From the NCBI RefSeq assembly GCF_017993425.1, contig NZ_JAGOMQ010000025.1, positions 27,070 through 65,946 on the forward strand: a stretch of DNA of 38,877 nt, given 5' to 3'. The translations under genes and the position numbers were made by a program. This document shows positions 6,629 to 36,753 of this stretch, piece by piece. How positions within the stretch are numbered: the first letter of the stretch is position 1; every line of letters begins with the position of its first letter. Source of the DNA: Amaricoccus sp. GTDB lineage: Bacteria > Pseudomonadota > Alphaproteobacteria > Rhodobacterales > Rhodobacteraceae. A model generated the notes under the pieces. It did not search any database, had not been told where the DNA came from, and saw nothing but the letters and a program-made list of their open reading frames with translations.

Positions 6629-6960
6629 CAGACTGCACGACAGTGGAGAGAAACCCCGGTCGGGAGAGTGCGGGACGGTGACGCCAGACGGATTTGACCC
6701 GTGGCAAATCCGTCCGCGATCGCCCCTCGGGGGGCGAGCGCGATTCCGCGCTCGCCGGGGCAATCACGGACGGATTGAGCGCAACGGGGAAATCTGGACC
6801 CCCTACGGCTTACGCGCCAACGCGCTCCAGCCGTCGGCGCGGCGAAAGCCTTGCTTTCGCTTGTCGCGCCGCAGTCTCGCGGGCAGAGCCCGCTTCGGTC
6901 GGGGGGAGCGACGCGGCCTCGGGCGGCGACCGGCTCCTGTCGTGTAGTGTGATCAGCTTA
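6620..6960. mobile_element. MITE-like element copy A with 9-bp target duplications
   Basis: The element spans 6629-6951 (323 bp). Its ends are CAGACTGCACGACAG on the left and the inverse of CACACTACACGACAG on the right, matching at 13 of 15 positions. It is flanked by the perfect 9-bp direct repeat ATCAGCTTA at 6620-6628 and 6952-6960, the signature of transposition. It is about 96% identical by eye to copy C and more diverged from copy B. It encodes no recognisable protein and contains several strong hairpins. It lies between hslO (stop at 7095) and the tps operon (start at 6427). In this copy the right end faces the TTCACGCGTGAA repeat, 54 bp away. Confidence 0.9.
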
Positions 6961-6983
6961 AGTTACAATATAACATATTGAAC

Positions 6984-7018
6984 GAAATCAATGCGTTGAA
7001 TAATTTTCACGCGTGAAC
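6984..7018 (-). repeat. Dispersed 35-bp repeat with TTCACGCGTGAA palindrome, copy 1
   Basis: Read on the minus strand, it begins GTTCACGCGTGAA and ends CATTGATTTC. The palindrome is at 7006-7017. It matches copies at 20139-20173 and 36358-36392 over the same length, with about five mismatches to the second. It lies 77 bp downstream of the hslO stop codon on the same strand and reads towards mobile element copy A, which ends 54 bp beyond the palindrome. Function is unknown. Confidence 0.8.
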
Positions 7019-7080
7019 ACCTGCCGGCCCTCGCGTCCCGAAGAGACCGCGGGGACCGGTCGACAGGGGTCGCCCGGCCC

Positions 7081-7104
7081 GATCAGGCCTCCGATCAGGC
7101 CTCC
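7081..7104. repeat. 12-bp tandem duplication at the hslO stop codon
   Basis: GATCAGGCCTCC occurs twice in a row. The inner copy contains the hslO stop codon and the outer copy lies in the 3' untranslated region, so a short duplication has copied the end of the gene without changing the protein. Confidence 0.8.
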
Positions 7105-8078
7105 GGGCGCAGGCCCAGCTCGGCGGGATCGAACTCGTAATGCGCGCCGCAGAACTGGCAGTCGGCGGTGACCCGGCCGTCCTCGGTGGTCATCGACGCG
7201 ATTTCCTCGGGCGAGTAGATCGACAGCGAGCGCACCACCTTCTCCGGGCCGCAGGTGCAGCCGAAGCGCACGGGCTGGGGGGTGTAGACGCGCGGGCCCT
7301 CCTCGTGGAACAGCCGCAGCAGCAGCTGGTCCGGGCCGACATGCGGGCCGATCAGCTCGGTCGCCTCGACGGTGGAGAGGAGCGTGACCGCGCGGTTCCA
7401 GTCGTCGGCGTCCTCGCCGTCGACGAGGTCGGCCGCGGTGGTCAGCCCGTCGGCGCCGGCCGGCAGGCTGTCGGGCCGCGGCGGGGCCTTCGGCATGTGC
7501 TGGAGCATCACGCCGCCCGAACGCCAGCGCGCCGGCCGGCCGGGGGAGCTCGCCTCGCCCATGGCGAGGGCGAAGCGGGTGGGGAGCTGCTCGGACTGGG
7601 CGAAGTAGGTCTCGGCGCATTCGGCGAGCGAGGCGCCGGCGACCGGGGTCATGCCCTGGTAGGGCGCGGCCCCCGGGCCCTGGTCGATCAGGATGGCGAA
7701 GACCCCGCCGTCGACGAGGTCGAAGGGCGCGCCCACATGGGCCGCCGCCGCCTCGGCGTCGAAGCCGGCATAGGCGCGCATCCGCGCCGGCTCGCCCTCG
7801 GCGGTCGGTCCGAAATAGTCGGTGGCGATCAGCCGCACCGGGCCGCGGCCGCGGATCTGCAGCGAGAGCCGCCAGCGGCGCTTGATGGTCTGGCCGATCA
7901 GCGCGGTCAGCAGCACCGCCTCGGCGATCAGCGCGGCGACCGGCGCGGGATAGGCGTGCTGGCCGAGGATCGTCTCGAGCACGGAATCGAGCCGCGCCAC
8001 GCGGCCGCGCACGTCGGCGCGGTCGAGCTGGAAGGGCAGGATCGTATCGTCCCAGGCGATCTGGCCGGCGAGGCTCAT
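7095..8078 (-). CDS. hslO: Hsp33 redox-regulated chaperonin
   Basis: A cytosolic holdase chaperone of 327 residues that is activated by oxidation and protects unfolding proteins during oxidative and heat stress. The C-terminal zinc switch is intact: C274-T-C276 and C307-Q-F-C310, the CxC...CxxC arrangement of the family. The N-terminal part has the family's hydrophobic AEAVLLTALIGQTIKRRWRLSLQ segment, followed by GPVRLIATDY. I start at 8078 (MSLAGQIAWDD), where family similarity begins; the frame stays open upstream to 8183 but only with low-complexity Arg/Pro sequence. It is divergent from the Nudix gene, with about 100 bp between the starts. The stop lies inside a 12-bp tandem duplication (7081-7104). 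Confidence 0.95.
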   Translation of the reverse strand: MSLAGQIAWDDTILPFQLDRADVRGRVARLDSVLETILGQHAYPAPVAALIAEAVLLTALIGQTIKRRWRLSLQIRGRGPVRLIATDYFGPTAEGEPARMRAYAGFDAEAAAAHVGAPFDLVDGGVFAILIDQGPGAAPYQGMTPVAGASLAECAETYFAQSEQLPTRFALAMGEASSPGRPARWRSGGVMLQHMPKAPPRPDSLPAGADGLTTAADLVDGEDADDWNRAVTLLSTVEATELIGPHVGPDQLLLRLFHEEGPRVYTPQPVRFGCTCGPEKVVRSLSIYSPEEIASMTTEDGRVTADCQFCGAHYEFDPAELGLRPEA

Positions 8079-8181
8079 CGGGCTGCTTTCGAGGTTGCTT
8101 GCGCGGGGGAGATAGGAAGCCGGCCGCCGCGATGCAACGCGACCCCTTCCGGGCCGGGGTCGCGGCGGCCTAGGATGGGCC

Positions 8182-8613
8182 ATGCGACGTTTCGGCGAGC
8201 CCGTCCGCCCCGGCCAGACCTATCGCCCGCGCCCCGGCGCCTACGCGGTGATCCGCGACGGCGACGACGTGCTGGTCACCGAGCAGTCCGCCCCCCAGCG
8301 CGAGGTGCAGCTCCCCGGCGGCGGCATCGACCCGGGCGAGGGCCCGGTGGCGGCGCTGCGGCGGGAATGCCTCGAGGAGACCGGCTGGGCGATCGCCGTG
8401 GTCCGCAGGCTCGGGGCCTACCAGCGCTTCGGCTACATGCCCGAGTACGACCTCTGGGCGCAGAAGATCTGCCACGTCTACCTGGCGCGGCCGGTGCTGC
8501 GCCGGGGGCCGCCGCGCGAGGCGGGGCACCGGGCGCTCTGGATGCCGATCCCCGTCGCCGCGGCGCTCGTGGCGAGCGACGGCGACCGCGCGTTTCTGGC
8601 GGCCTTGCGATGA
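8182..8613 (+). CDS. Nudix hydrolase
   Basis: A 143-residue pyrophosphohydrolase of the Nudix superfamily, probably cleaving a nucleoside-diphosphate-linked substrate that cannot be named from sequence. The Nudix box is complete at about residues 47-69: GGIDPGEGPVAALRRE, then CLEETGW, with the REx2EE metal-binding glutamates. The fold is short with no extra domain. The stop codon overlaps the ATG of the next gene (ATGA), so the pair is translationally coupled. The partner is a lipoprotein of unknown function, which gives no hint of the substrate. MutT-like or ADP-ribose-pyrophosphatase-like activities are both possible. Confidence 0.9.
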   Translation: MRRFGEPVRPGQTYRPRPGAYAVIRDGDDVLVTEQSAPQREVQLPGGGIDPGEGPVAALRRECLEETGWAIAVVRRLGAYQRFGYMPEYDLWAQKICHVYLARPVLRRGPPREAGHRALWMPIPVAAALVASDGDRAFLAALR

Positions 8614-9149
8614 AAGCCTTGACGCCGCTCGGGTTCCTCCTGGCGCTCGGCTCCTGCGCGACGCTGTCGGAGGAGGCCTGCCGCGGCGGCGACTGGCGCG
8701 GGGTCGGCTATCGCGACGGGGCGGCGGGGCGGGCGGAGGGGTTCCTGTCGAACCACGCCGAGGCCTGCGCGGAATACGGGATCGCCCCGGACGTCGCCGC
8801 CTGGCGGGCGGGGCGGGCGGAGGGGCTGCGGTCCTATTGCACGCCGGCGAACGCCTTCGAGGCCGGCCTGCGCGGCGGGCGGCTCAACCCGGTCTGCCCG
8901 CCGGCGGAGCGCTGGCGGCTGGCGGCGGCGGAGGAGCGGGGTCTGCGGATCCACGGCGTGGAGGTGCAGATCGACGGGCTGGAGCGCGAGAACCGCGAGG
9001 CGCGGGAGCGGATCGACAAGCTCCTCAAGGGCGAGGTCGGGCCGGAGGAGCGACGGCGGATCCGCCGGCTGGAACGGGGGATCGAGGACCGCGAGCAGGA
9101 GATCCGGAGGCTGGAGCGGGAGGCGCGCCACGCTTCGATCGGGTATTGA
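8610..9149 (+). CDS. DUF2799-family lipoprotein
   Basis: A 179-residue predicted lipoprotein. The N-terminus has a hydrophobic signal ending in a lipobox, LALGSC, with cysteine at about residue 16. The body has the DUF2799 pattern: DWRGVGYRDGAAGR, an H-x3-C segment (NHAEAC), then AGRAEGLRSYCTP and a closing cysteine (LNPVCP). The last 60-70 residues are rich in Arg and Glu and look like a coiled coil (from about ERGLRIHGVEVQIDGLE). Function is unknown. It overlaps the Nudix gene by four bases and is probably co-expressed with it. A short perfect hairpin (9178-9192) follows and may terminate the pair. Confidence 0.85.
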   Translation: MKALTPLGFLLALGSCATLSEEACRGGDWRGVGYRDGAAGRAEGFLSNHAEACAEYGIAPDVAAWRAGRAEGLRSYCTPANAFEAGLRGGRLNPVCPPAERWRLAAAEERGLRIHGVEVQIDGLERENREARERIDKLLKGEVGPEERRRIRRLERGIEDREQEIRRLEREARHASIGY

Positions 9150-9515
9150 GGCCGGCGGAGGCATCCCTCTGGAAGGCCTCGGAAAATCCGAGCTGGAAAC
9201 AGGTTGGAATCCGGCTCGCCATTTTCATGTAGGATTGACGCCCGGGCGGAACGACCCGCTCGGCCAGCCTGGGCGCGGCCGGTGGACGCGGCGCCGGATC
9301 GGGCGCTGTCTGACTGTCAGGCGGACCCGATGAGGCGGCGCAACCTCGCGGGGGACCCGGGGCACGCCGATGTCTTCGCGACGATGCTCCCCGGAACCCG
9401 GCCACCGCCACATCTGGCGCCTCACCCCAGCCGCTCCCTCCACATACGGTAGTTCCCGCTTGACTCGCCGCCCCCGCTCGCCAAGGATCCCCCCGGATCG
9501 CGAAAGGCCAGCCCC
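9150..9515. other. Gap between DUF2799 gene and smc
   Basis: Apart from the hairpin at 9178-9192 I see no gene or repeat here. The smc promoter must lie in it. A TTGACT near 9460 could be a -35 element, but no convincing -10 follows. Confidence 0.4.
9178..9192 (+). terminator. Short hairpin after the DUF2799 gene
   Basis: CTCGGA and TCCGAG form a perfect 6-bp stem around AAA, 29 bp after the stop codon. There is no T tract, so termination is a guess. Confidence 0.35.
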
Positions 9516-12500
9516 GTGCAGTTCACCCGCCTCCGCCTCTCCGGCTTCAAGAGCTTCGTCGACCCGACCGAGCTCGTCATCTCCGCCGGCCTCACCGGCG
9601 TCGTGGGTCCAAACGGCTGCGGCAAGTCGAACCTCCTCGAGGCCATCCGCTGGGCCATGGGCGAGAGCCGCCCCACCGCCATGCGCGGCGACGGCATGGA
9701 CGACGTGATCTTTGCCGGCTCCGCCTCGCGCCCCGCGCGCAGCCACGCCGAGGTCGGCCTCTTCATCGACAACCGCGACCGCCTCGCCCCCGCCGGCTTC
9801 AACGACGCCGACGCGCTGGAGATCACCCGCCGCATCCACCGCGACGCGGGCTCCGTCTACCGCGTCAACGGCCGCGAGGCCCGCGCCCGCGACGTCGCCA
9901 TGCTGTTCGCCGACGCCTCGACCGGCGCCCAGTCCCCCGCCCTCGTTCGCCAGGGCCAGATCTCCGAGCTGATCAACGCGCGCCCCAAGGCCCGCCGCCG
10001 CGTGCTGGAGGAGGCCGCCGGCATCGCCGGCCTGCACCAGCGCCGCCACGAGGCCGAGCTGAAGCTCCGCGCCGCGGAGGCGAACCTCGGCCGCGTCGGC
10101 GATGTCCTCGAAGCGCTGGAAGCCCAGATCGCCACCCTCGCCCGCCAGGCGAAGACCGCCGCCCGCTACCGCGAGATCGCCGAGGCGCTGCGCCGCGCCG
10201 AGGGGCTCGGCCTCTGGCGGCTCTGGCGCGACGCCGAGGACGAGCGCGCCACCGCGGCCTCGGCGCTCACCGCCGCCGTCCGCGCCGCCGCCGCCACGAC
10301 CGCCGCCGCTTCCGAGGCCACCCGCGCCCGCGCCGCCGCCGAAGAGGCCGTCCCCCCCGCCCGCGAGGAGGATGCCGTCGCCGCCGCTGTCCTCCAGCGC
10401 GCCACGATCGAGCGCGAGCGCCTCGACGCCGCCATGGCCGAGGCCGAGCGCCGCATCGCCGACCTCGCCGCCGCGCTGGCCCAGATTGAATCCGACCGGG
10501 AGCGCGAGGCCGCCCTCGACCGCGACGCCCTCGACATGGACGCCCGCCTCGCCGCCGAGCGCGCCGAGCTTGAGGCCGCCGGCGAAGGCCACGAAGCCGC
10601 CCTCGCCGCCGCCCTCGCCGAGGCCGAGCGCGCGACCGCCGCGCTGAAAATGGTCGAGGCCGCCTTCGACGCCGCCGCCGAATCCGCCGCCCGCCTCGCC
10701 GCCGAGCACCAGACCGCGACCGCCCGCCGCGCGGAGGCGCAGAAGCGCGAGGTCGAGGCCGCCCGCGCCCTCGCCTCCGCCGAGGCCGCGCTCGCCTCCG
10801 CCGAGACCGATCTCACCCGCAGCGCCGAGGCCCGCGCGGCCGCCGCCGCCGCCAACGAGGCTGCCGTCGCCCGCGCCGAGGCCGCCGAGACCGCCCTTGC
10901 CGGGGCCGAGGCCGCCGCCTTCGCCGCCCGCGCCACTGATGTCGCCGCCCAGTCCGCCCGCGCCGGCGCCGAGGGCGCGCTGAAGGCGCTCGCCGCCGAG
11001 ACCGCCGGGCTGGAGCGCGCCCTCGCCCGCCCCAAGGGCGCCGCCGCGCCCCTCCTTGACGCCCTCCGCGTCGATCCCGGCTACGAATCCGCCCTCGGCG
11101 CCGCGCTCGCCGACGACCTCGCCCAGCCGGCCATCGAGGCGCAGGCCGCCACCGGTTGGCTTGCCCTCGACCCGCTCGCCCAGCCGCCGCTGCCCGAGGG
11201 CGCCGAGCCCCTCGCCGCCCGCGTCGCCGCCCCGCCGGAGCTCGCCCGCCGCCTCGCCGCCATCGGCGTCGTCGCGCGCGCCGACGGCCCGCGCCTGCAA
11301 GCCGCGCTCGCCCCCGGCCAGCGCCTCGTCAGCCGCGAGGGCGACCTCTGGCGCTGGGACGGCCTGCGCCTCGCCGCCGGGGCCGCCTCGGGGGCGGCCG
11401 CCGAGCGCCTGCGCCAGCAGAACCGCCTCACCGACCTGCGCCGCCAGCTCGCCCAGGCGGAAACGGCCGCCGCGGTCGCCCGCGAAGCGCAGGCCGCCTC
11501 CGCCGCCGACCTCACCGGCGCCGTTGCCGCCGAGCAGGCCGCCCGCGCCGCCCGCCGCGCCGCCGAGACGGCGCTCGCCGACGCCACCCGCGCGCTCACA
11601 CGCGCGGAAGCCGCCGCCGAGCAGGCCCGCGGCCGCGCCGACGGCTTGCGCTCGGGGCGCCGCCGCCGCGCCGAGGAGGCCGGGACGGCGACCGCCGCCC
11701 GCGCCGCCGCCGACGAGGCCGCCTCCCGCCTCCCCGACCCGACCGAGGCTCGCGCCCGCGTCGACGCCGAGCGGCTCAAGGTCGAGGCCGCCCGCATCGC
11801 CATGATGACCCGCCGCGCCGCTGCCGAGGAGCTCGACCGCGCCGGCGCGACCCGGGCGAAGCGCCTCGACGCCATCGCCCGCGAGACCGAGAGCTGGCGC
11901 GCCCGCCGCGCCAACGCCGCCGACCGCCTCGCCACGCTCGACCGCCGCGCCGCCGACACCGCCGCCGCGCTCGCGGCCGCCCGCGACGAGCCGCCGGCGC
12001 TCGCCGCCCGCCGCGCCGGCCTCGCCGAGACGCTGGCCGACGCCGAGGCCCGCCGCCGCCGCGCCGCCGACACGCTCGCGCTGGCCGAAACCGCGCTCAA
12101 GGAGCGCGACGTGGCCTTGCGCGCCGCCGAGAAGGCCGCCGCCGAGGCCGGCGCCGCCCGCGCCCGCGCCGAGGCCGTCGCCGAGGCCGCCGAGACGCGC
12201 GCCGCCGCCGCCGTCGAGCGCGTCCGCTCCGAGGCCGAGACCGAGCCCGGCGACCTCCTCGCCCGCTTCGCCGCCGACCCCGACCGCGTGCCCCCGGCCG
12301 CCGACCTCGACGCCGAGGCCCAGCGCCTGCGCCGCGCCCGCGACGGCCTCGGCGCGGTGAACCTGCGCGCCGAGGAGGACGCCCGCGCCGTCCAGGCCGA
12401 GCACGACACGCTGACCGCCGAGCGCGCCGAGATCGAGGAGGCGATCCGCAAGCTCCGCCAGGGCATCTCCAGCCTGAACCGCGAGGGCCGCGGCCGCCTG

Positions 12501-12977
12501 CTCGCAGCCTTCGAGGAGGTCAACCGCAACTTCGCCGCGCTCTTCAAGCGGCTCTTCGGCGGCGGCGAGGCGACGCTGACGCTGGTCGAATCCGACGATC
12601 CCCTCGAGGCCGGGCTCGAGATCATGTGCCAGCCTCCGGGCAAGAAGCTCGCCACCCTCTCGCTCCTCTCCGGCGGCGAGCAGACCCTGACGGCGCTGTC
12701 GCTGATCTTCGCGGTGTTCCTCGCCAACCCCTCGCCGATCTGCGTCCTCGACGAGGTCGATGCGCCGCTCGACGACGCCAACGTCACCCGCTTCTGCGAC
12801 CTGATGGACGAGATGACCGGGCGCACCGCGACGCGCTTCCTCGTCATCACCCACCACGCGGTGACCATGTCGCGCATGGACCGCCTCTTCGGCGTGACCA
12901 TGGCCGAGCCCGGCGTCAGCCAGCTCGTCTCCGTCGATCTCGCCGGCGCCGAGCGCATGGGCGCGCTGGTCGCCTGA
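9516..12977 (+). CDS. smc: Chromosome segregation protein SMC
   Basis: A 1,153-residue SMC ATPase that forms the DNA-loop-extruding core of condensin with ScpA and ScpB. The N-terminal head has Walker A GPNGCGKS (31-38). Two very long Ala/Arg/Glu-rich coiled-coil arms flank a hinge at about residues 500-620 (YESALGAALADDL to GLRLAAGAA). The C-terminal head has the signature LSGGEQTLTALSLIFAVF (about 1050) and Walker B PICVLDEVDAP (about 1074-1084) with the catalytic glutamate. Length is typical. The start is GTG, placed directly before QFTRLRLSGFKSF, the conserved SMC N-terminus. The extreme codon bias (GCC, CGC, GAG) creates a long open frame on the other strand that is not a gene. It stands alone here, without scpAB. 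Confidence 0.97.
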   Translation: MQFTRLRLSGFKSFVDPTELVISAGLTGVVGPNGCGKSNLLEAIRWAMGESRPTAMRGDGMDDVIFAGSASRPARSHAEVGLFIDNRDRLAPAGFNDADALEITRRIHRDAGSVYRVNGREARARDVAMLFADASTGAQSPALVRQGQISELINARPKARRRVLEEAAGIAGLHQRRHEAELKLRAAEANLGRVGDVLEALEAQIATLARQAKTAARYREIAEALRRAEGLGLWRLWRDAEDERATAASALTAAVRAAAATTAAASEATRARAAAEEAVPPAREEDAVAAAVLQRATIERERLDAAMAEAERRIADLAAALAQIESDREREAALDRDALDMDARLAAERAELEAAGEGHEAALAAALAEAERATAALKMVEAAFDAAAESAARLAAEHQTATARRAEAQKREVEAARALASAEAALASAETDLTRSAEARAAAAAANEAAVARAEAAETALAGAEAAAFAARATDVAAQSARAGAEGALKALAAETAGLERALARPKGAAAPLLDALRVDPGYESALGAALADDLAQPAIEAQAATGWLALDPLAQPPLPEGAEPLAARVAAPPELARRLAAIGVVARADGPRLQAALAPGQRLVSREGDLWRWDGLRLAAGAASGAAAERLRQQNRLTDLRRQLAQAETAAAVAREAQAASAADLTGAVAAEQAARAARRAAETALADATRALTRAEAAAEQARGRADGLRSGRRRRAEEAGTATAARAAADEAASRLPDPTEARARVDAERLKVEAARIAMMTRRAAAEELDRAGATRAKRLDAIARETESWRARRANAADRLATLDRRAADTAAALAAARDEPPALAARRAGLAETLADAEARRRRAADTLALAETALKERDVALRAAEKAAAEAGAARARAEAVAEAAETRAAAAVERVRSEAETEPGDLLARFAADPDRVPPAADLDAEAQRLRRARDGLGAVNLRAEEDARAVQAEHDTLTAERAEIEEAIRKLRQGISSLNREGRGRLLAAFEEVNRNFAALFKRLFGGGEATLTLVESDDPLEAGLEIMCQPPGKKLATLSLLSGGEQTLTALSLIFAVFLANPSPICVLDEVDAPLDDANVTRFCDLMDEMTGRTATRFLVITHHAVTMSRMDRLFGVTMAEPGVSQLVSVDLAGAERMGALVA

Positions 12978-12987
12978 GGCAACGGCG

Positions 12988-13009
12988 GACCGGGCGGAGA
13001 CGCCCGGTC
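12988..13009 (+). terminator. Hairpin after smc
   Basis: GACCGGGCG and CGCCCGGTC form a perfect 9-bp stem with a GAGA loop, 10 bp after the smc stop codon. No T tract follows, as is common in GC-rich genomes. A transcription terminator for smc is likely. Confidence 0.6.
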
Positions 13010-13063
13010 AGCAGCCCGGCGGCCGCTTCGGGCGCTAACGACCTGTTAAAAAGTGGCAAGCCG

Positions 13064-13096
13064 CATTCCAGCCCGATTCCAGCCACATTCCAGCCC
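13064..13096. repeat. Three 11-bp tandem units between smc and xylA
   Basis: CATTCCAGCCC, GATTCCAGCCA and CATTCCAGCCC follow each other without a gap, and a further CATTCCAGC lies in the loop of the hairpin just downstream. This is a short minisatellite in the convergent intergenic gap. No function is evident. Confidence 0.75.
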
Positions 13097-13137
13097 GGTC
13101 TTTTCCGGCCATTCCAGCAGGATGGCCGGAAACCGGG
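13094..13137. terminator. Bidirectional hairpin between convergent smc and xylA
   Basis: TTTCCGGCCAT (13102-13112) pairs perfectly with ATGGCCGGAAA (13122-13132) around a 9-nt loop. With a small bulge the stem extends through CCCGGT and ACCGGG on the outside. It lies 10 bp after the xylA stop and between convergent genes, so it most likely terminates xylA and may also stop smc read-through. Confidence 0.65.
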
Positions 13138-13146
13138 ACGGGGGCG

Positions 13147-14448
13147 TCACACGAACCGGTTGACCCAGTTCTCCAGCATCTCCTGCCGCCCCGACCGCGG
13201 CTGCGGCTCCAGCCCTTCCCTGTCGACCCGGGCCGCGATCGTCTCCAGATCCGACCCCAGCATCGCCTGCGCCTCGGCGCTCTCCCAGCCGGCATACCGC
13301 TCCTTCAGCGCCTTCGCGAGCCCGCCGTCCTCGGTCATCGCCGCCGCGGCCAGCAGCGCCTTCGCGCAGATGTCGATGCCGCCGACATGCGCCGCGATCA
13401 AGTCCTGCGGATCGAGCGACTGCCGCCGGATCTTGGAATCGAAGTTGAACCCGCCCGTGGTGAGCCCGCCCGCCTTGAGGATGTAATAGATGGCGAGCGC
13501 CATCTCCGGCGCGTTATTGGGGAACTGGTCCGTATCCCATCCCGACTGATAATCGTTACGGTTCGCGTCCACCGACCCGAAGATCCCGAGCGCCGCCGCC
13601 GTGGCGATCTCGTGCTCGAACGAATGGCCCGCCAGCACCGCATGGCCGACCTCGATATTGACCTTCACCTCCTTCTCCAGCCCAAAGCGCTGGAGAAATC
13701 CGAACACCGTGGCGACGTCATAGTCGTACTGATGCTTCGTCGGCTCCTGCGGCTTCGGCTCGATAAGTATCGTGCCAGGAAACCCGATCTTGTGCTTGTA
13801 GTCGACCACCATCGACAGGAACCGCCCGGCATGGTCGAGCTCCTGCTTCATGTCGGTATTGAGCAGCGTCTCATACCCCTCGCGCCCACCCCAGAGCACA
13901 TAATTCGCCCCCCCGAGCCGGTGCGTCACATCCAGCGCATCCTTCACCTGCGCCGCCGCATAGGCAAAGACGTCCGGATCGGGATTGGTCGCCGCGCCAG
14001 ACATGAAGCGTCGGTTGGAGAACAGGTTGGCCGTGCCCCACAACAACCTTACGCCCGTCTCCTCCTGCTTCTTCGCGAAGATATCGGCGATCTCGCGCAC
14101 ATTCCGCGACGACTCCGCGAGGCTCCGGCCCTCCGGCGCCACGTCGCGATCGTGAAAGGTGTAGAACGGCGTCCCGAGGATCGAGAACATCTCGAAGGCG
14201 ACATCCGCCTTCAGCCGCGCCGCCTCCATCCCGCCGTCGAACCACGGCCGCTCGAACGTCTGCCCCCCGAACGGATCGCCCCCCGGCCACGCGAAGGAAT
14301 GCCAGTAAGCGACGGCGATCCTAAGCTGCTCCTCCATCGTCTTGCCGAGCACCACCCGCGCCGGCTCGTAATACCGGTAAGCAAGCGGGTCGTCGCTCTC
14401 CGGCCCCTCGAAGGGGACCTTGCCGATGCCGGCGAAGAAGTCGCTCAT
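13147..14448 (-). CDS. xylA: Xylose isomerase
   Basis: Converts D-xylose to D-xylulose, the first step of the isomerase pathway. The protein is 433 residues, the usual size of the long (class II) enzymes. The catalytic His-Asp pair lies in [13 protein letters not shown] (H99, D102). Metal-ligand segments are present: [18 protein letters not shown], the histidine-rich stretch [13 protein letters not shown], and [10 protein letters not shown] choose the start at 14448 ([15 protein letters not shown]), which has an AGG-type ribosome site just upstream and matches the family N-terminus; an in-frame ATG at 14478 would add ten residues. xylB lies on the same strand 472 bp upstream, but an opposite-strand gene sits between them, so they may not share one simple operon. 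No xylose transporter or XylR is visible here. Confidence 0.96.
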
Positions 14449-14558
14449 GTCCTGGCCTTTCGGTTGAGGCTTTACCAAGGCGGCCCGCGGCGCCTCCGCA
14501 AGGCCCAGTGTTCGTGGCTTGATCCCGCTCGGCGGCCGGATGACGCGCCCGCCGGCCT

Positions 14559-20002: not shown

Positions 20003-20138
20003 CGCTTGCGTCCTTCGTTCGCCGCGCAGCGCGGCAGCCGTGGGACGGCGCCGGAACGGGCGGGGGCCCGGCGCGTCTCCGGTTCGATCGGGCGCCGGGG
20101 CGCGAAAGTCAACCTTCCCGCCCGGCGAAGCAGCTTCT

Positions 20139-20173
20139 GTTCACGCGTGAAAATTCGGCAAGCCATTGATTTC
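20139..20173 (+). repeat. Dispersed 35-bp repeat with TTCACGCGTGAA palindrome, copy 2
   Basis: It begins GTTCACGCGTGAA (palindrome 20140-20151) and ends GCCATTGATTTC. It is very similar to copy 3 (36358-36392). Unlike the other copies, no mobile element lies 54-55 bp beyond it. The corresponding position would be about 20198-20206, at the edge of a GC-rich stretch. It lies 137 bp upstream of the hemA start and reads away from hemA. Confidence 0.8.
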
Positions 20174-23544: not shown

Positions 23545-23580
23545 AACACGCGTGATATCCAAGTTAAAGTGCTGAAATCA
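23545..23580 (+). repeat. Degenerate copy 4 of the palindrome repeat
   Basis: AACACGCGTGAT (23545-23556) keeps the CACGCGTGA core of the TTCACGCGTGAA repeat, and the ATAT and CCAAG blocks follow with a 3-bp gap relative to copy 3. It lies 64 bp after the cysteine-rich gene on the same strand. Mobile element copy B starts 55 bp beyond the palindrome. As a repeat copy it is weak on its own; the matching distance to the element is the main support. Confidence 0.5.
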
Positions 23581-23596
23581 AATGATAATCCTGGCG

Positions 23597-23970
23597 GCGT
23601 CAACCTTCCGGCACACTGCACGACAGTGGAGAGGAAGCCCGGCCCGAGGCTGGCCGCGACGCCGACGCCAGACGGATTTGACCCGTGGCAAATCCGTCCG
23701 CGATCGCCCCTGCGGGGGGCGAGCGCGATTCCGCGCTCGCCGGGGCGATCACGGACGGATGGCGCGCTCCCGGAGAAATCGGCGCCCCTCACGGCTTCCG
23801 CGCCAACGCGCTCCAGCCGTCGGCGCGGCGAAAGCCGTGCTTTCGCCTGTCGCGCCGGGCCTCGCGGGCAAGCCCGCTTCGGTCGGTCGGTCGGTCGGCG
23901 CGCGCCCCGTGGATCCAGCAGAGCAGACAGGTGTCGTGCAGTGGGACCTTCCGGTCGCGAAGGTTGACGC
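23597..23970. terminator. Hairpin between convergent genes split by the copy B insertion
   Basis: GCGTCAACCTTC (23597-23608) and GAAGGTTGACGC (23959-23970) are perfect 12-bp inverse complements lying on either side of the mobile element. Removing the element and one target duplicate leaves a 12-bp stem with a 7-nt loop. It would sit between the convergent cysteine-rich gene and recQ, where a bidirectional terminator is expected. Confidence 0.7.
23603..23954. mobile_element. MITE-like element copy B with 9-bp target duplications
   Basis: The element spans 23612-23945 (334 bp). The left end is CACACTGCACGACAG and the inverse of the right end is CCCACTGCACGACAC (13 of 15 match). The perfect 9-bp direct repeat ACCTTCCGG flanks it at 23603-23611 and 23946-23954. 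The middle (GACGCCAGACGGATTTGACC through the hairpins) is nearly identical to copies A and C. The outer parts differ more, including a small GGTC/GGTCG repeat near 23880 and a different right arm, so this is an older or separate lineage. There is no protein-coding content that I can support. Confidence 0.9.
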
Positions 23971-24003: not shown

Positions 24004-26112
<2,109 letters not shown>

Positions 26113-26182
26113 GTCGCGGGGAGTCTAGGGCGCGGGGCCGGGAATGTCTCCGCCCCCGCGGCGGTCGGCTTAACGCGGCCGG

Positions 26183-27966: not shown

Positions 27967-28046
27967 CGGGCTCCTCGTCTGGCCATGGGGCGACGCCCCG
28001 TCTATATGGGCCGGGGAACCCCCTGCAACCTCGAAAGGCCGCTGCC

Positions 28047-30026: not shown

Positions 30027-30091
30027 GGCTCCCGATTGCCGGCGCCCGCCGGCTGCGCCAGAGTGCCGCCGGGCGACGCGGAGGAAGGGGC

Positions 30092-30553
30092 ATGACCGGA
30101 CGGCTGCATCTGGAGGACCTCCGCGAGGGCCAGCGCTTCGTCAGCGCTGCGCGGACGATCGACGCGGGGGAGATAAAGGCCTTCGCCCGCGACTTCGATC
30201 CGCAGCCGTTCCACCTCGACGAGGCGGCGGCCGCGGGCTCGTTCTTCGGCGGGCTGGCGGCGAGCGGCTGGCACACCGCGGCGCTGACCATGCGGCTCCT
30301 CGTCGACAGCCTGCCCTTCGCGGGCGGGATCATCGGCGCCGGCGGCGAGCTCTCGTGGCCGCGGCCGACGCGGCCCGGCGACACGCTCCACGTCGAGGCG
30401 GTGGTGGAGAAGGTCACCCCCTCCCGCTCCCGCCCGGACCGCGGCATGGTGGCGATGCGCATCGAGACGAGGAACCAGGACGGCGAGACCGCCCAGCTCT
30501 TCCGCGTCAACGTCATGGCCTTCCGCCGGCCGGCGACCGCTCCGTCTTCCTAG
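30092..30553 (+). CDS. MaoC-like hotdog hydratase
   Basis: A 153-residue single-hotdog protein of the MaoC/(R)-hydratase type, probably acting on an acyl-CoA double bond or a related thioester. It begins LHLEDLREGQRF and has the hydratase signature with the catalytic Asp and His: KAFARDFDPQPFHLDEAAA, then FFGGLAASGWHTAALTM. The WPRPTRPGDTLHVEAVV segment is typical of the family. GAGGAAGGGG just upstream of the ATG is a strong ribosome site. It follows the MFS gene closely and may share its transcript. The substrate is unknown. Confidence 0.9.
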   Translation: MTGRLHLEDLREGQRFVSAARTIDAGEIKAFARDFDPQPFHLDEAAAAGSFFGGLAASGWHTAALTMRLLVDSLPFAGGIIGAGGELSWPRPTRPGDTLHVEAVVEKVTPSRSRPDRGMVAMRIETRNQDGETAQLFRVNVMAFRRPATAPSS

Positions 30554-30682
30554 CCCCCGAACCTCCTGGCCCCGAACGCATCCGTTCATCGGTCCGCGGA
30601 AAGCTGTCGAAATTCCGCCGCCCGTTCACACATCGGCAATCTCCGGGCCGAATACCTGTCGAGCCGACGACGATGATGACCA

Positions 30683-31507
30683 ATGCGAGCGAACCAGACC
30701 CTTGCGCTCCTGATAGACGGCGACAACGTATCGTCGAAGGTCGTCTGCGGGTTGCTTGCCGAGGTCGCGACCTACGGCACGGCGAGCGTGAAGCGGATCT
30801 ACGGCGACTGGACCCAGCCGAACCTGAGCGGGTGGAAGGATTGCCTGCTCGAGCATTCGATCCAGCCGGTTCAGCAATTCGCCTACGTCACCGGCAAGAA
30901 CACGACCGATGGCGCGATGATCATCGACGCGATGGACCTGCTCCACACCGGTCGATTCTCCGGGTTCTGCATCGTCTCCAGCGACAGCGATTTCACCCGC
31001 CTCGCGGCCCGCGTCCGCGAGCAGGGCATAACGGTCTACGGCTTCGGCGAGCGCAAGACGCCTCGCTCCTTTGTCACGGCCTGTGACAGGTTCGTGTACT
31101 TCGACCTCCTGGCCGCGCCCAGGGTCGAACCCGGCGCCGAACGGGGCGAGGCGCGGGCTTCCGGCGTCACGGTGCTGCCGACGGCTCGCCTCGCGCCTGC
31201 GCCCGCGGCGGTTCCCCTCAAGGCTCCTCTCGACCGCAGGGCGATCGGCATCCTTGCTGAGGCGATCCGTGCGACGGCCGGGAACGACGGGCGGGCGAAT
31301 CTCTGTAGTGTCGGGGCACATCTGTCCAAGCAGGCTCCGGGCTTCGATGCCCGCAAATACGGATTTGCACGGCTCTCGGATTTGGTGAAGGCTTCGGGCA
31401 TCGTCGAGGTGGAGCTCGTCGGGCAGGGGCCGATTGTGGTTCGCCTCAAAGCCGATAGTCACAAGGCGGTTCCGACAAGCCTGCCGGCAGCGGCCGCCAA
31501 GCCCTGA
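30683..31507 (+). CDS. NYN-domain (PIN-like) protein with C-terminal LOTUS/OST-HTH domain
   Basis: A 274-residue LabA/DUF88-type protein. The N-terminal NYN domain (about 5-150), a PIN-like ribonuclease fold, keeps the acidic residues in LLIDGDNV, KNTTDGAMIIDAMDLLH and IVSSDSDFTRLAARVREQG. After a linker, the C-terminus (about 195-258) has an OST-HTH/LOTUS-like domain with CSVGAHLSKQAPGFDARKYG, then FARLSDLVKASGIVEVE, a fold associated with RNA binding. Together they suggest an RNA-processing or RNA-decay enzyme, but the target is unknown. Codon use is less GC-extreme than in neighbouring genes, so acquisition by transfer is possible. The start ATG has only a weak ribosome site. It stands alone between the MaoC and mutS genes. 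Confidence 0.88.
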   Translation: MRANQTLALLIDGDNVSSKVVCGLLAEVATYGTASVKRIYGDWTQPNLSGWKDCLLEHSIQPVQQFAYVTGKNTTDGAMIIDAMDLLHTGRFSGFCIVSSDSDFTRLAARVREQGITVYGFGERKTPRSFVTACDRFVYFDLLAAPRVEPGAERGEARASGVTVLPTARLAPAPAAVPLKAPLDRRAIGILAEAIRATAGNDGRANLCSVGAHLSKQAPGFDARKYGFARLSDLVKASGIVEVELVGQGPIVVRLKADSHKAVPTSLPAAAAKP

Positions 31508-31620
31508 GCCCGGCTTCGGGCCGCGAACGGCTCGCTCGGTCGTCTGCCCGAACCCCACCCCATTGGCGCGCCGGCCCGAGCCTGTATAACCGCCTCCGAC
31601 CGGAGCCGGACGGACGCGCC

Positions 31621-34278
31621 TTGAACGACACTCCCTCGCCGATGATGGCGCAATACCTCGGCATCAAGGCCGACCATGCCGACGCGCTGCTCTTCTACCG
31701 CATGGGCGACTTCTACGAGCTGTTCTTCGACGACGCCGTCGCCGCCTCCGCCGCGCTCGACATCGCGCTGACCAGGCGCGGGCTGCACCAGGGCGGGGAC
31801 ATCCCGATGTGCGGGGTGCCCGTCCACGCCGCCGACGGCTACCTGCTGACGCTGATCCGCAAGGGCTTCCGCGTCGCCGTCTGCGAGCAGATGGAGGACC
31901 CGGCCGAGGCGCGCAAACGCGGCGCGAAATCCGTCGTGCGCCGCGAGGTCGTCCGCGTCGTCACCCCCGGCACCCTGACCGAGGACAGCCTGCTCGAGCC
32001 CCGCCGCGCCAACTGGCTCGCCGCCTATGCCGAGCTGCGCGGCGAGGGCGCCTTCGCCTGGGCCGACGTCTCGACCGGCGAATTCGCCGTCGCCGCCTGC
32101 CCCCGCGCCCGCCTCGGCCCGATGCTCGCCCGCCTCGCCCCCCGCGAGGTCCTCGTGCCGGAGACGCTGGAACCCGAGCTGCGCGAACTCGTCGCCGAGG
32201 CCGGCGCCGTCGCCGCGCCCCTCGCCCGGTCGAGCTTCGACAGCGCGTCGGGCGCCGCCCGCACCGCCGCGCTCTTCGGCGTCGCCTCGCTCGACGCCTT
32301 CGCCGCCTTCGACCGCGCCGAGACCGCCGCCCTCGGCGCCCTAGTCGACTACCTCGAGCTGACCCAGAAGGGCCGCCTCCCCCTCCTGCGCCCGCCGGTC
32401 CGCGAGACGCCGGGGGGCACGATGGCGATCGACGCCGCCACCCGCCGCAACCTGGAGCTCGTCCGCGCCCTCGACGGCGGCCGTGAGGGCTCCCTCGTCG
32501 CCGCCATCGACCGCACGCTGACCGGCGCGGGCGGCCGCCTCATCGAAGCCCGCGTCTCCGCCCCCTCGACCGACGTCGCGCTCCTCTGCGCCCGCCAGGG
32601 CGCCGTCGCGCATCTCGTCGACGACCCCGACCGCCTGCGGAGCTTGCGCGAGGCGCTCCGCCGCGCGCCCGACCTCGAACGCGCCCTCGCCCGGCTCGCC
32701 CTCGACCGCGGCGGCCCGCGCGACCTCGCCGCGGTCCGCGACGCGCTCGCCGCCGCAGGCCGCCTGCGCGAAGCCCTCCTCGCCGACCCGCCCGCCACGC
32801 CGCCCGAAGCCCTGACCGCCGCCGCCGCCTCGCTCGTCGGACCGGCCGGCCTCGAAGCCCGCCTCGCCGCCGCCCTCGTCGACGAACCGCCGGCGCTCCT
32901 GCGCGACGGCGGCCTCGTCGCCCACGGCTACGACGCCGAGCTCGACGACACCCGGCGCCTGCGCGACCAGGGCCGCGGGGTCGTCGCCGAGCTGCAGGGC
33001 GAGTACGTGCGCGAGAGCGGCATCGCGGCGCTGAAGATCCGCCACAACAACGTGCTCGGCTACCACATCGAGACCCCGGCGACCCACGCCGAGAAGATGC
33101 TGTCGCCGCCGCTCTCGGCCCTCTTCGTCCATCGCCAGACCACGGCGAACGCGCTGCGCTTCACCACGCTGGCGCTGGCCGAGATCGAGAAGCGCATCCT
33201 CGGCGCCGCCGACGCCGCGCTCGCCATCGAGCGCCGGGTGTTCGGCGAGCTGCGGGCCGCGATCCTCACTGAAGCGGGGCGGCTCGGGGCGCTGGCGCGC
33301 GCGACGGCGGAGGTCGACGTCGCCTGCGGGCTCGCCGACCTCGCCCGCGCCGAGGCGTGGGTCGCGCCGGAGATCGTCCCCGGCCGCGCCTTCGAGGTCG
33401 CCGGCGGCCGGCACCCGGTGGTCGAGGCGGCGCTGCGGCGCTCGGGGGCGGCCTTCGTCGCCAACGACTGCGAGGCCGGGGCCGACGGGCCGGGCGCGCG
33501 GCCGCTCTGGCTGATCACCGGGCCGAACATGGCCGGCAAGTCGACCTTCCTGCGGCAGAACGCGCTGATCGCCATCCTCGCGCAGATCGGGGCCTTCGTG
33601 CCGGCCGCCTCGGCGCGGATCGGCGTCGTCGACCAGCTGTTCAGCCGGGTGGGCGCGGCGGACGACCTCGCGCGCGGGCGGTCGACCTTCATGGTCGAGA
33701 TGGTCGAGACCGCGGCGATCCTGAACCAGGCCGGGCCGGGGGCGCTCGTCATCCTCGACGAGATCGGCCGCGGCACGGCGACCTATGACGGGCTCTCGAT
33801 CGCCTGGGCGGTGCTCGAGCACCTGCACGACGTCAACCGCTGCCGGGCGCTCTTCGCCACCCATTACCACGAGCTGACCGCGCTCGCCGCGAAGCTGCCG
33901 GGGCTGCGCAACGCCACGGTGGCGGTGCGGGAGTGGAAGGGCGAGGTGGTGTTCCTGCACGAGGTGCGCGAGGGCGCGGCGGACCGCTCCTACGGCGTGC
34001 AGGTCGCCCGGCTCGCCGGCCTGCCGCCCGCGGTGCTCGACCGCGCCCGGACGATCCTCGGCATGCTGGAGAAGGGCGAGCGCGAGCCCTCGGCGCGCGC
34101 CCGCGCGCTGCTCGACGACCTGCCGCTCTTCAGCGCCGCCGCCGCGGCGCCGCCGCCCGCGGCCGCTCCGGCGCCCTCGGCCGTCGAGGACCGGCTGCGC
34201 GCCGTCCATCCCGACGAGCTGACGCCGCGCGAGGCGCTGGCGCTCCTCTACGAGCTGCGGGGGATGCTCGGGGGGTGA
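31621..34278 (+). CDS. mutS: DNA mismatch repair protein MutS
   Basis: The mismatch-sensing ATPase of methyl-independent or MutL-directed repair, 885 residues, close to the usual size. The mismatch-binding F-x-E motif is F31-Y-E33 in GDFYELFFDD. The core and lever domains follow, with the conserved HNNVLGYHIE stretch. Then come the ATPase Walker A GPNMAGKST (634-642), Walker B VILDEIGRGTATYDGLSIAWA (about 710) and ATHYHELTAL. The C-terminal part has a low-complexity Ala/Pro stretch (AAAAAPPPAAAPAPSA), then a short tail. The start is TTG at 31621; MMAQYLGIKADH, the conserved N-terminus, begins eight residues in. The lytic transglycosylase gene follows after 80 bp. Confidence 0.97.
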   Translation: MNDTPSPMMAQYLGIKADHADALLFYRMGDFYELFFDDAVAASAALDIALTRRGLHQGGDIPMCGVPVHAADGYLLTLIRKGFRVAVCEQMEDPAEARKRGAKSVVRREVVRVVTPGTLTEDSLLEPRRANWLAAYAELRGEGAFAWADVSTGEFAVAACPRARLGPMLARLAPREVLVPETLEPELRELVAEAGAVAAPLARSSFDSASGAARTAALFGVASLDAFAAFDRAETAALGALVDYLELTQKGRLPLLRPPVRETPGGTMAIDAATRRNLELVRALDGGREGSLVAAIDRTLTGAGGRLIEARVSAPSTDVALLCARQGAVAHLVDDPDRLRSLREALRRAPDLERALARLALDRGGPRDLAAVRDALAAAGRLREALLADPPATPPEALTAAAASLVGPAGLEARLAAALVDEPPALLRDGGLVAHGYDAELDDTRRLRDQGRGVVAELQGEYVRESGIAALKIRHNNVLGYHIETPATHAEKMLSPPLSALFVHRQTTANALRFTTLALAEIEKRILGAADAALAIERRVFGELRAAILTEAGRLGALARATAEVDVACGLADLARAEAWVAPEIVPGRAFEVAGGRHPVVEAALRRSGAAFVANDCEAGADGPGARPLWLITGPNMAGKSTFLRQNALIAILAQIGAFVPAASARIGVVDQLFSRVGAADDLARGRSTFMVEMVETAAILNQAGPGALVILDEIGRGTATYDGLSIAWAVLEHLHDVNRCRALFATHYHELTALAAKLPGLRNATVAVREWKGEVVFLHEVREGAADRSYGVQVARLAGLPPAVLDRARTILGMLEKGEREPSARARALLDDLPLFSAAAAAPPPAAAPAPSAVEDRLRAVHPDELTPREALALLYELRGMLGG

Positions 34279-34358
34279 CCGCGGCCGCATCGCCCGAGAC
34301 GACGGCGCGCGGCCCTGCTATAGTGCCGGCAAAACACGGTCCCGAACGAGGCACGGGC

Positions 34359-36332
34359 ATGCGCCGGATCAGGCTCGCGATCTTTCCGCTGTTGTGCGCC
34401 GCCGCGCTCGTCGCGCCGCCGGCGGGGCGCACCCAGACGGCGGACCAGGCCGAGGCCAACGCCCTCGCCGCGGCGCTGGCCGCCGCCGACGCCGCCGACT
34501 GGCCGGCCGCCGACGACCTCGCCGCCGGGCTAGACGACGCCGTCGCCGCCGACGTGGTGCTGTGGATCCGCCTGCGCGAGGGCGCGGGGACCTGGGACGA
34601 GCTGAGCGGCTTCCTCGCCCGCGAGCGCGGCTGGCCGGGCCTGTCGCCGATCCGCCGCCACGCCGAGCGGGCGATGCCCGCCAGCCTGACGGCCCCCGAG
34701 GTGATCGCCTTCTACGCCGGCGAGCCGCCGCTGACCGGCGCGGGCTCGCTGCGCTACGCCGCGGCGCTCGCCGCCTCGGGGCGCCAGCCGGAGGCCGACG
34801 CCGAGATCCTGCGGGTCTGGCGCGAGGTCCCGGTCGGCGCCGCCGACCAGGCCTCGCTCCTCGCCGCCCACGAGGCCCTCGTCGAGCCGCTGGTGGTCGA
34901 GCGCCTCGACATGCTGCTCTGGCGCGGCCTCGGCGCCGAGGCGGAGGCGCTGATCCCGCGCGCCCCGGAGGGCTGGCGGAAGCTCGCCAAGGCCCGCATC
35001 GCCGTCCGCCGCGACACGGACGGCCTCACCGCGGCGGTGAACGCCGTGCCCGCCTCGCTGAAGGACGACCCCGGCCTCGCCTACGAGCGCTACCTCTACC
35101 GGGTGACCCGCAACCGCGCCGACGAGGCGGAGGCGTTCCTGATCGCGCGCTCCACCTCGGCCGCGGCGCTCGGCCGTCCCGACATGTGGATGAAGGGCCG
35201 CGCCGACATGGCCCGCAAGGCGCTGCGCCGGGGCGACGTGGCGAGCGCCTATGCGCTGGCCGCGGCCAACTACGGGAACGCCGCCTCCGGCGCGGACTAC
35301 GCCGACGCGGAATGGGTGGCGGGGTTCATCGCGCTGACCCGGATGGACGACCCCGACGCAGCGGCCGCGCATTTCGTCCGTTTCCGCGAGGCGGTCGCCA
35401 CCCCGATCAGCCTCGGCCGCGCCGGCTACTGGCTCGGGCTCGCCGAGGCGGCGCGCGGCGACGACGCGGCGGCCATGGCGGCCTGGACCGAGGGCGGGCG
35501 CTACCAGACGAGCTTCTACGGCCAGCTCTCCGCCGAGCGGGCCGGCCTGTCGCCCGACCCGGCGCTTGCCGGCGACGCGGCGGCGCCGCGCTGGCGCGGG
35601 CGGCAGTTCGCGCTCGGCTCGGTGGTGCAGGCGGCGCAGCTCCTCGAGCTCGCCGGCGACGACGTGCGGGCGACGCTGTTCTTCCGGCAGGCGGGCGAGG
35701 GCCAGACGCCGCGGCTGCGCGCGGCGCTGGCGCAGATGGCCGCCGACCTCGGCCGGCCCCACCTCGCCGTGCGCATCGCCAAGGACGCGGCCGCCGACGG
35801 GGTGATCCTGCCGAGCCAGTACTACCCCCTCCACGCCATCGCCGCCGGATCCTGGCCGGTGCCGACGGAGCTCGCGCTGGCGATCGCCCGGCAGGAGAGC
35901 GAGTTCAATCCCGAGGCGGTCAGCGCCGCCGGCGCGCGCGGGCTGATGCAGCTGATGCCGGCGACCGCCGAGGAGGTCTCCGGCAAGCTCGGTGTGCCCT
36001 TCGAGCAGGCGCGGCTGACCGCTGACCCGCTCTACAACGCCACGCTCGGCACCGCCTATCTGGCGCGGATGCTGCGGGCCTATGACGGCTCCTACGTGCT
36101 GACCGCCGCCGCCTACAACGCCGGCCCGGGGCGGGTGCGCGAGTGGCTGGCGGCGAACGGCGACCCGCGCGATCCCGGGGTCGACGCGGTGGCCTGGATC
36201 GAGGCGATCCCGTTCGAGGAGACGCGGAACTATGTCATGCGGGTGATGGAGAGCCTGCACGTCTACCGCGCCCGCCTCGGCGGGCAGGTGGCGCCGATCC
36301 GCCTCGCCTCGGACATCCACGTCGCCGGGTAG
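34359..36332 (+). CDS. Soluble lytic murein transglycosylase (Slt70-like)
   Basis: A 657-residue periplasmic enzyme that cleaves peptidoglycan with formation of a 1,6-anhydro bond. It has a signal peptide (RRIRLAIFPLLCAAALVAPPAG), a long alpha-helical superhelix region (about 30-480), and a C-terminal lysozyme-like domain. The catalytic Glu513 lies in ARQESEFNPEAVSAAGARGL, then MQLMPATAEEV and YVLTAAAYNAGPGRV. Length matches Slt70-type proteins. The ATG at 34359 is preceded by GAGG; the frame is open upstream only because it overlaps mutS out of frame. Copy 3 of the dispersed palindrome repeat lies 26 bp after its stop. Confidence 0.94.
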   Translation: MRRIRLAIFPLLCAAALVAPPAGRTQTADQAEANALAAALAAADAADWPAADDLAAGLDDAVAADVVLWIRLREGAGTWDELSGFLARERGWPGLSPIRRHAERAMPASLTAPEVIAFYAGEPPLTGAGSLRYAAALAASGRQPEADAEILRVWREVPVGAADQASLLAAHEALVEPLVVERLDMLLWRGLGAEAEALIPRAPEGWRKLAKARIAVRRDTDGLTAAVNAVPASLKDDPGLAYERYLYRVTRNRADEAEAFLIARSTSAAALGRPDMWMKGRADMARKALRRGDVASAYALAAANYGNAASGADYADAEWVAGFIALTRMDDPDAAAAHFVRFREAVATPISLGRAGYWLGLAEAARGDDAAAMAAWTEGGRYQTSFYGQLSAERAGLSPDPALAGDAAAPRWRGRQFALGSVVQAAQLLELAGDDVRATLFFRQAGEGQTPRLRAALAQMAADLGRPHLAVRIAKDAAADGVILPSQYYPLHAIAAGSWPVPTELALAIARQESEFNPEAVSAAGARGLMQLMPATAEEVSGKLGVPFEQARLTADPLYNATLGTAYLARMLRAYDGSYVLTAAAYNAGPGRVREWLAANGDPRDPGVDAVAWIEAIPFEETRNYVMRVMESLHVYRARLGGQVAPIRLASDIHVAG

Positions 36333-36357
36333 GGGCTGTCGGGCGGAGTCGGGGCGT

Positions 36358-36392
36358 GTTCACGCGTGAATATTCGCCAAGCCATTGATTTC
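36358..36392 (+). repeat. Dispersed 35-bp repeat with TTCACGCGTGAA palindrome, copy 3
   Basis: It begins GTTCACGCGTGAA (palindrome 36359-36370) and ends GCCATTGATTTC, nearly identical to copy 2 (20139-20173). It lies 26 bp after the lytic transglycosylase stop codon on the same strand and reads towards mobile element copy C, which begins 55 bp beyond the palindrome. Confidence 0.8.
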
Positions 36393-36416
36393 GTGTAATC
36401 GTAAACGGGACCTTGC

Positions 36417-36753
36417 GCGTCGCGCCTGCACGACAGTGGAGAGAAACCCCGGTCGGGAGAGTGCGGGACGGTGACGCCAGACGGATTTGACCCGTGGCAA
36501 ATCCGTCCGCGATCGCCCCTCGGGGGGCGAGCGCGATTCCGCGCTCGCCGGGGCAATCACGGACGGATTGCGCGCGACGGAGAAATCTGGACCCCTGACG
36601 GCTTCCGCGCCACCGCGCTCCAGCCGTCGGCGCGGCGAAAGCTTTGCTTTCGCTTGTCGCGCCGCAGCCTCGCGGGCAGAGCCCGCTTCGGTCGGGGGGA
36701 GCGACGCGGGCTCGGGCGGCGACCGGCTCCTGTCGTGTAGTGTGGCGTCGCGC
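36417..36753. mobile_element. MITE-like element copy C with 9-bp target duplications
   Basis: The element spans 36426-36744 (319 bp) and is flanked by the perfect 9-bp repeat GCGTCGCGC at 36417-36425 and 36745-36753. The right end matches copy A exactly. The left end starts at CTGCACGACAG and lacks the outer CACA seen in copy B. Three internal hairpins are perfect. One has arms GACGGATTTG (36480-36489) and CAAATCCGTC (36498-36507). One has arms GGCGAGCGCG (36526-36535) and CGCGCTCGCC (36540-36549). One has arms GCGAAAGC (36635-36642) and GCTTTCGC (36646-36653). The copy is about 96% identical to copy A by eye. Confidence 0.9.

Follow-up and report, generated by a model that had tools for sequence, protein, structure and literature searches.

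Introduction

The target choice of insertion sequences (IS) is usually described as a weak sequence preference. Tn7, the transposons associated with clustered regularly interspaced short palindromic repeats (CRISPR) and the res hunters of the Tn5053 type insert at a fixed distance from a bound site; their duplications measure 5 bp, and they carry genes for dedicated target selectors. In CRISPR integration by Cas1-Cas2 the bend that integration host factor (IHF) gives to the leader defines the integration point. Here we analyse a stretch of 38,877 nt from Amaricoccus sp. (contig NZ_JAGOMQ010000025.1; the window), in which three copies of a miniature inverted-repeat transposable element (MITE) each lie 54 or 55 bp from a palindrome that is followed by an IHF-like site. 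In the genome it comes from (G000, the source genome) such insertions are independent, distance-directed events, and on the evidence of motif and spacing IHF-bent DNA probably positions the transpososome of an IS4-family element, with the palindrome-IHF repeats as its hotspots.

An insertion hotspot of IS1 in pBR322 binds IHF (Gamas 1987, Prentki 1987; via the relevant passage of PMC11043490). As far as that passage goes, the likeness is an insertion hotspot that binds IHF, here an IHF-like site at which binding is predicted; pBR322 offers one hotspot, whereas many sites are used here. For IS1 we are aware of neither a fixed distance nor a mirrored geometry across many sites. E. coli carries dispersed, palindrome-associated IHF-binding repeats at the 3' ends of transcription units, known as RIB (reiterative ihf BIME) or BIME-1 (bacterial interspersed mosaic element 1; Boccard and Prentki 1993, in the part of PMC2817692 that treats them). 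By that description the palindrome-IHF repeats resemble RIBs and may be analogous to them, being likewise dispersed at 3' ends of transcription units and associated with palindromes, with an IHF site assigned by consensus only. BIME-1 has two inverted repetitive extragenic palindromes (REPs) around the IHF site, whereas here a single palindrome of species-specific sequence is joined to an IHF-like arm and a third block. IS1397, IS621 and ISRm22 have hotspots at extragenic palindromic repeats as well, and copies of ISRm22, of the IS4 family, all lie in REPs (nine in the text portion and 10/10 in the table of PMC1525189); these elements insert into the REP itself, whereas the duplications described here are found about 45-54 bp beyond the palindrome and have unrelated target bases. 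CGTC-tagged REPs are defined, in the relevant part of PMC3733652, by a stem of 8-9 bp, a loop of 4-5 nt and a CCA-like tail, whereas the palindromes of G000 and of the same-genus genome G007 are 12-16 bp long and lack a CCA-like tail.

An earlier note on this DNA had likened the behaviour to Tn7-like or res-site-hunting transposons. Machinery of that kind is not indicated: from these and from CRISPR-associated transposons the present system differs in its 9-bp duplications and in that the sole transposition protein seen is the IS4-family DDE transposase of the autonomous partner. With Cas1-Cas2 it would share an IHF bend that places integration, the integrase and the substrate being different. 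Among the titles and abstract openings listed for open-licence papers on IS targeting and IHF, REP and IHF, and MITE and IHF, none concerned fixed-distance IHF-directed IS4 insertion, and five head sequences retrieved a single paper, which was irrelevant.

Results

The exact 12-bp palindrome occurs at 110 places in the source genome and its reversed control at none; the asymmetric repeat with up to three mismatches occurs at 121 places and its control at none. The analysis covered 104 distinct repeats in fetched loci rather than all 121 pattern matches, and a terminal repeat of the element (best match, at least 11/15 bases) was found 53-56 bp downstream of the palindrome in 54 of them, or 51-56 bp downstream in 56. 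This is the sharp peak at about 55 bp that the earlier note had expected of targeted insertion in a genome-wide distance plot. The upstream flanks gave a match in five cases, none at 44-60 bp; insertion on the palindrome side was rejected, three of these five words lying 0-8 bp from the palindrome, without duplications, and looking like chance. No recognised element end stood at the expected place in 44-47 of the 104 repeats, depending on threshold, and some of these show decayed ends. Counted from the elements (85 distinct copies in fetched loci, both flanks readable in 79), the canonical repeat, called with a position matrix at a threshold of +15 that 2,916 random flanks never approached (at most -22), lies on exactly one flank in 52/79 copies and on both in 0/79. 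Over all 85 copies, 53 of 55 repeat matches fall at 51-56 bp.

Target duplications of at least 8/9 bases flank 55 of the 79 copies and exact 9-bp ones 36, with a shift of up to 2 bp allowed in the genome-wide scoring, and the 24 exact duplications beside repeats are all different. The repeat is faced by one terminus in 30 copies and by the other in 25, which supports the earlier description of a distance that is fixed while orientation is free. Of four head-to-tail pairs, three consist of copies separated by 8-9 bp that contain the duplication word, inverted in one of the three, a layout expected if one spot receives two insertions. A larger duplicated block carrying palindrome and element together, which the earlier note had named as grounds for doubt, was not found. 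Since the distance is fixed while orientation is free, the duplications are separate and no such block exists, insertion is directed. Copies far from any palindrome, the other ground for doubt, are a minority: L021, L026, L041 and L143 have a duplication of at least 8/9 and no canonical repeat, L021 having an IHF-like site (7/9) at the mirrored position described below. Further repeat-less copies belong to tandem pairs as the second member, have another head or just an IHF-like site, or are decayed; among source-genome elements without the canonical repeat, an IHF-like site occurs at the standard offset in 8/30, with another head or none, by a matrix trained on G007 only.

Some loci depart from the common layout. 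At G000:C17:131275 and 131747 two opposite-strand repeats about 450 bp apart face each other. Other shared sequences lie about 50 bp after the repeat, without the usual terminal repeat, at L026 and L071 and at L049, L163 and L074, and possibly represent further element families.

The features of the window are as follows.

6620..6628, no strand: left target duplication of copy A, 9 bp, ATCAGCTTA; exact pair in the genome-wide scoring (L090)
6629..6951, plus strand: element copy A, MITE, 323 bp, 97% identical to copy C over 300 nt; terminal repeats CAGACTGCACGACAG and CACACTACACGACAG
6952..6960, no strand: right target duplication of copy A, 9 bp, exact pair with the left (L090)
6985..7020, minus strand: palindrome-IHF repeat A; palindrome 7006-7017, IHF-like site 6986-6998
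20137..20172, plus strand: palindrome-IHF repeat D; palindrome 20140-20151, IHF-like site 20159-20171; no adjoining element
23545..23577, plus strand: degenerate palindrome AACACGCGTGAT (23545-23556) and IHF-like site (23565-23577), 47 bp before copy B
23603..23611, no strand: left target duplication of copy B, 9 bp, ACCTTCCGG, read from the sequence
23612..23945, plus strand: element copy B, 334 bp, divergent, 82-91% identical to A and C in conserved parts; terminal repeats read
23946..23954, no strand: right target duplication of copy B, 9 bp, read from the sequence
36356..36391, plus strand: palindrome-IHF repeat C; palindrome 36359-36370, IHF-like site 36378-36390
36417..36425, no strand: left target duplication of copy C, 9 bp, GCGTCGCGC, by eye
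36426..36744, plus strand: element copy C, 319 bp, left end about 4 bp shorter
36745..36753, no strand: right target duplication of copy C, 9 bp, by eye

The gaps from palindrome to element given in the earlier note, 54 bp for copy A and 55 bp for copies B and C, were correct when the coordinates were re-read, and the three 9-bp duplications differ from each other. Unlike the reading by eye, the genome-wide script (shifts up to 2 bp) gave the duplication of copy C a score of only 6.7. The IHF-like site of repeat A reads AATCAATGCGTTG on the plus strand and agrees with 9/9 informative bases of WATCAANNNNTTR; that before copy B agrees with 7/9 consensus bases, counted by eye. Repeat D, which has the same arm, scores 48.9 bits with the palindrome-plus-arm model R1 (G000:C7:47207). 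Allowing three mismatches, the palindrome is not in excess inside the window alone (7 matches against a shuffle mean of 10.9); the excess lies in exact copies and genome-wide.

Conservation over the 104 copies shows the 12-bp palindrome and then an arm with the fixed bases YAA....TTGATT, its middle four positions being more variable, which we take to be the IHF consensus read on the opposite strand. The constant arm YAAGYCATTGATT agrees with the consensus for IHF, YAANNNNTTGATW, the N positions of which are the less conserved ones; the match is strong in the repeats of both the source genome and G007, and these are putative binding sites. IhfA and IhfB are both encoded in the source genome, above curated cut-offs. 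The palindrome thus appears as the variable head of a module with a constant IHF-like arm. A third block follows, with 19 matches to TGTGAAC (at most one mismatch) at +35/+36 from the palindrome among the 104 repeats, and reads AAAGTGTTAACG in G007 and TAGCGCTAAC in G074. By eye, a promoter-like reading of the arm, TTGATT-N18-TATAAC, can be made in some AT-rich copies only. All 104 source-genome repeats are intergenic by our own rough codon-score gene finder, 76 of them downstream of a co-oriented gene and only three in a divergent gene pair, an arrangement that they avoid. The repeats of G007 are placed similarly and comprise 15 between convergent genes, 11 and 6 between co-directional ones, four between divergent ones, two with one side undetermined and one inside a gene. 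No target duplication was found around the repeat itself (z at most about 4 over thousands of offset pairs), which gives no sign of the repeat moving by a duplication-making transposase. A search for a gene driving the repeat gave no candidate binder: only five flanking-gene pairs are common to the source genome and G007, and the four inspected by sequence resemble housekeeping genes as judged by eye.

The exact repeat pattern was found in one of 195 genomes, the source genome only, and no exact match to the source-genome repeat occurs among the named genome contigs, from which close relatives of the source genome have possibly been left out. A second head type in the source genome consists of perfect or near-perfect palindromes of the form (C)TA(A/T)CACGCGTG(T/A)TA(G) (L027, L028, L030, L035 and window 23545). 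In G007 an insertion of a same-genus IS, L118, has the same arm and gap with a different palindrome, TCCCCATGGGGA, and the prediction that this head would be dispersed in that genome held, with 39 copies; among nine other same-genus genomes it occurs once in one and not at all in the remaining eight. The IHF-like arm stands at the same spacing in 38/39 of the G007 repeats, L190 being the copy without it, and an IS end lies at a gap of 54 bp in 2/39. Matches to the palindrome-plus-arm model (E up to 1, 53 candidates scored per genome, weak matches included) are many in further genera and number at least 51 in G074, at least 42 in G073, at least 24 in G075, at least 12 in G011, at least 10 in G050 and at least 9 in the same-genus G001. 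Copies read from G074, G050, G001 and G075 have other heads and the arm; in single copies read from G073, G035, G047 and G052 the palindrome is present, the arm weak or absent, and these copies may be of another kind. The head sequence varies between species and within the source genome while the insertion distance stays.

The elements are MITEs of an IS4-family insertion sequence of the ISLpn9-like clade, with termini CACACTRCACGAC and 9-bp target duplications: most measure about 310-350 bp between the ends and have terminal inverted repeats, duplications and termini shared with the IS. Source-genome copies of this IS sit at contig ends, and the palindrome lies at the same distance from 2/5 of the IS ends (C8, C19); those on C22, C23 and C101 have no palindrome on the side that can be read, their other side being unassembled. 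Of the source-genome transposase just the first 78 aa can be read, at contig ends; this part has no Pfam match and is 64% identical to L120, a complete same-genus relative in G007 that matches NF033591 with 193 bits (cut-off 152) and PF01609 with 51 bits (cut-off 23). The motif Y(2)R(3)E(6)K, the YREK motif of the IS4 family as defined in the relevant part of PMC2266710, was seen by eye in an alignment of L120 and L123. The IS4 family makes target duplications of about 10 bp; here they measure 9 bp in the MITEs and reach 9/9 in 11 non-redundant named IS copies, which had been selected for at least 8/9. By these sequence matches the autonomous partner is an IS4-family transposase.

The flanks of related IS copies were then compared in named genomes of other alphaproteobacteria, many from one species, Jannaschia seosinensis (80 of 173 copies kept, flanks taken only from those with recognisable ends). 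They comprise 91 distinct flanks, two of which are N runs, leaving 89 non-redundant ones for counts with the textbook IHF consensus. The G007-trained matrix scored at least 5 at offset 48 in 11/91 flanks, the next offset having 5. With the textbook consensus the pre-specified offset 47 gave 8/89 flanks against a mean of 0.34 per offset, and within one base (46-48) 9/89, for which 500 mononucleotide shuffles gave a mean of about 0.7 and a maximum of 4. The opposite orientation peaks at 35, with 18/89 flanks at 34-36 (mean again about 0.7 and maximum 4 in 500 such shuffles). Counted from the element end, the site occupies bases 47-35 in the orientation toward the element and 35-23 in that away from it, and the point about which the two arrangements mirror each other is 35 bp from the element; the middle of the target duplication is about 30 bp away from it. 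Among the non-redundant named insertions with intact duplications 6/11 have such a site, against 3/97 shifted controls. Outside the 89 flanks the mirrored offset recurs at L107 (7/9), the second Cereibacter L123 end (8/9), L344 (9/9) and the source-genome L021; L342 repeats the site of L271.

Only 2/27 named flanks with an IHF-like site at a matching place have a palindrome (a 12-mer with at least 5/6 palindromic pairs) at the place of the head. In J. seosinensis L318 a 20-bp palindrome heads an IHF-like arm 54 bp from the IS copy, and at L107, a same-genus contig end (G003:C53), the IS end abuts the palindrome CTATCACGCGTGTTAG and the IHF-like site lies at the mirrored 35 bp. The determinant common to the species is the IHF-like site, and the palindrome is neither constant nor always present. 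At L289 (Jannaschia seosinensis, NZ_CYPR01000122.1) an IS lies at CAATTACCCA, one half of the palindrome of L318. On two Roseomonas mucosa plasmids (L350, L351) related IS copies in opposite orientations occupy nearly the same position in a shared sequence, 35 bp from a weak IHF-like word (6/9).

No known RNA was matched in the window by Rfam at gathering score. At window positions 500-2050 (minus strand) a long frame on that strand contains low-complexity coding repeats with units of about 81-111 bp, and at positions 10240-12440 (plus strand) a plus-strand frame of 1153 aa contains low-complexity repeats that are alanine-rich.

Discussion

From the consensus match and its geometry we infer that IHF occupies these sites while transposition takes place and that its bending or contact sets the insertion distance. 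The preferred target DNA of the transpososome would lie some 30 bp (about three turns of the helix) away from where the IHF-bound bend is centred, and neither the side of IHF nor the orientation of the element would matter. Most of the sites used in the source genome would be the approximately 120 dispersed intergenic repeats, mostly just past gene ends, each made up of a palindrome head, a putative IHF site and a short third block, and insertion beside them would yield the spacing of 54-55 bp.

Several observations weigh against this proposal. The source-genome repeats lack a clear A-tract, and those with a weaker arm are not clearly less used, with at most a trend in our own count. The mirrored offset was discovered in the 89 flanks that also supply its main count. 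No IHF-like site stands at either place in 62/89 flanks, one insertion offering two flanks, nor in 5/11 of the intact named insertions. Seven of 14 further IS ends have no 7/9 word at either place (the same-genus L105, L113 and L120, one L123 end, and the source-genome L082, L083 and L084), three Roseomonas loci reach only 6/9, and for IS4 elements that are more distantly related (ISAba1-like, their ends of the CTCTGTACACGAC type or similar) 0/9 readable loci reach 7/9 at the predicted places. L026, L041 and L143 are exceptions in the source genome itself.

That a palindrome-bound protein recruits the transposase, IHF merely assisting by bending, is unlikely, even though the palindrome has 110 exact copies, 52/79 elements adjoin a full repeat, L318 also has its palindrome at the right place, and the head is almost invariant among source-genome repeats, which is in part a product of the search pattern requiring it. 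Because the head changes while the distance stays, 25/27 named flanks with an IHF-like site lack a palindrome at the head's place, and L107 has its palindrome at distance 0 with the IHF-like site at 35, a palindrome-bound guide is not supported; of the earlier proposal that a protein bound at the repeat directs insertion, the direction of insertion stands and the palindrome as the guiding site does not. It is very improbable that the transposase itself reads an AT-rich motif with IHF uninvolved. Such direct reading would fit evidence that consists of the motif and its distance only, but the motif works in both orientations as mirror images about one point, a geometry more in keeping with a pseudo-symmetric bend centre than with an asymmetric word being read directly, and its informative positions are those of IHF. 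That repeat and element form one duplicated unit, never separate, would account for the constant spacing and is refuted by the 24 differing exact duplications between repeat and element, the free orientation, and the many repeats without a recognised element end (44-47/104, and all but two of 39 in G007).

Positioning by IHF-bent DNA, the preferred explanation, may be the general rule in a clade of IS4-family elements, and on this broader claim our judgement is evenly divided. Host IHF would serve the clade as a general target selector; its elements would insert at a set helical distance from the bend, whichever side of it they land on and whichever way round, and would thereby reach safe ground between gene ends. 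Its main hotspots would be fast-changing palindrome-IHF repeats, the heads of which are rewritten in each species, presumably following a rapidly evolving binding protein. If insertion is guided by IHF, the integration point would be fixed by an architectural protein of the host, to within 1-2 bases at dozens of sites, and such targeting would be directly testable in a laboratory strain.

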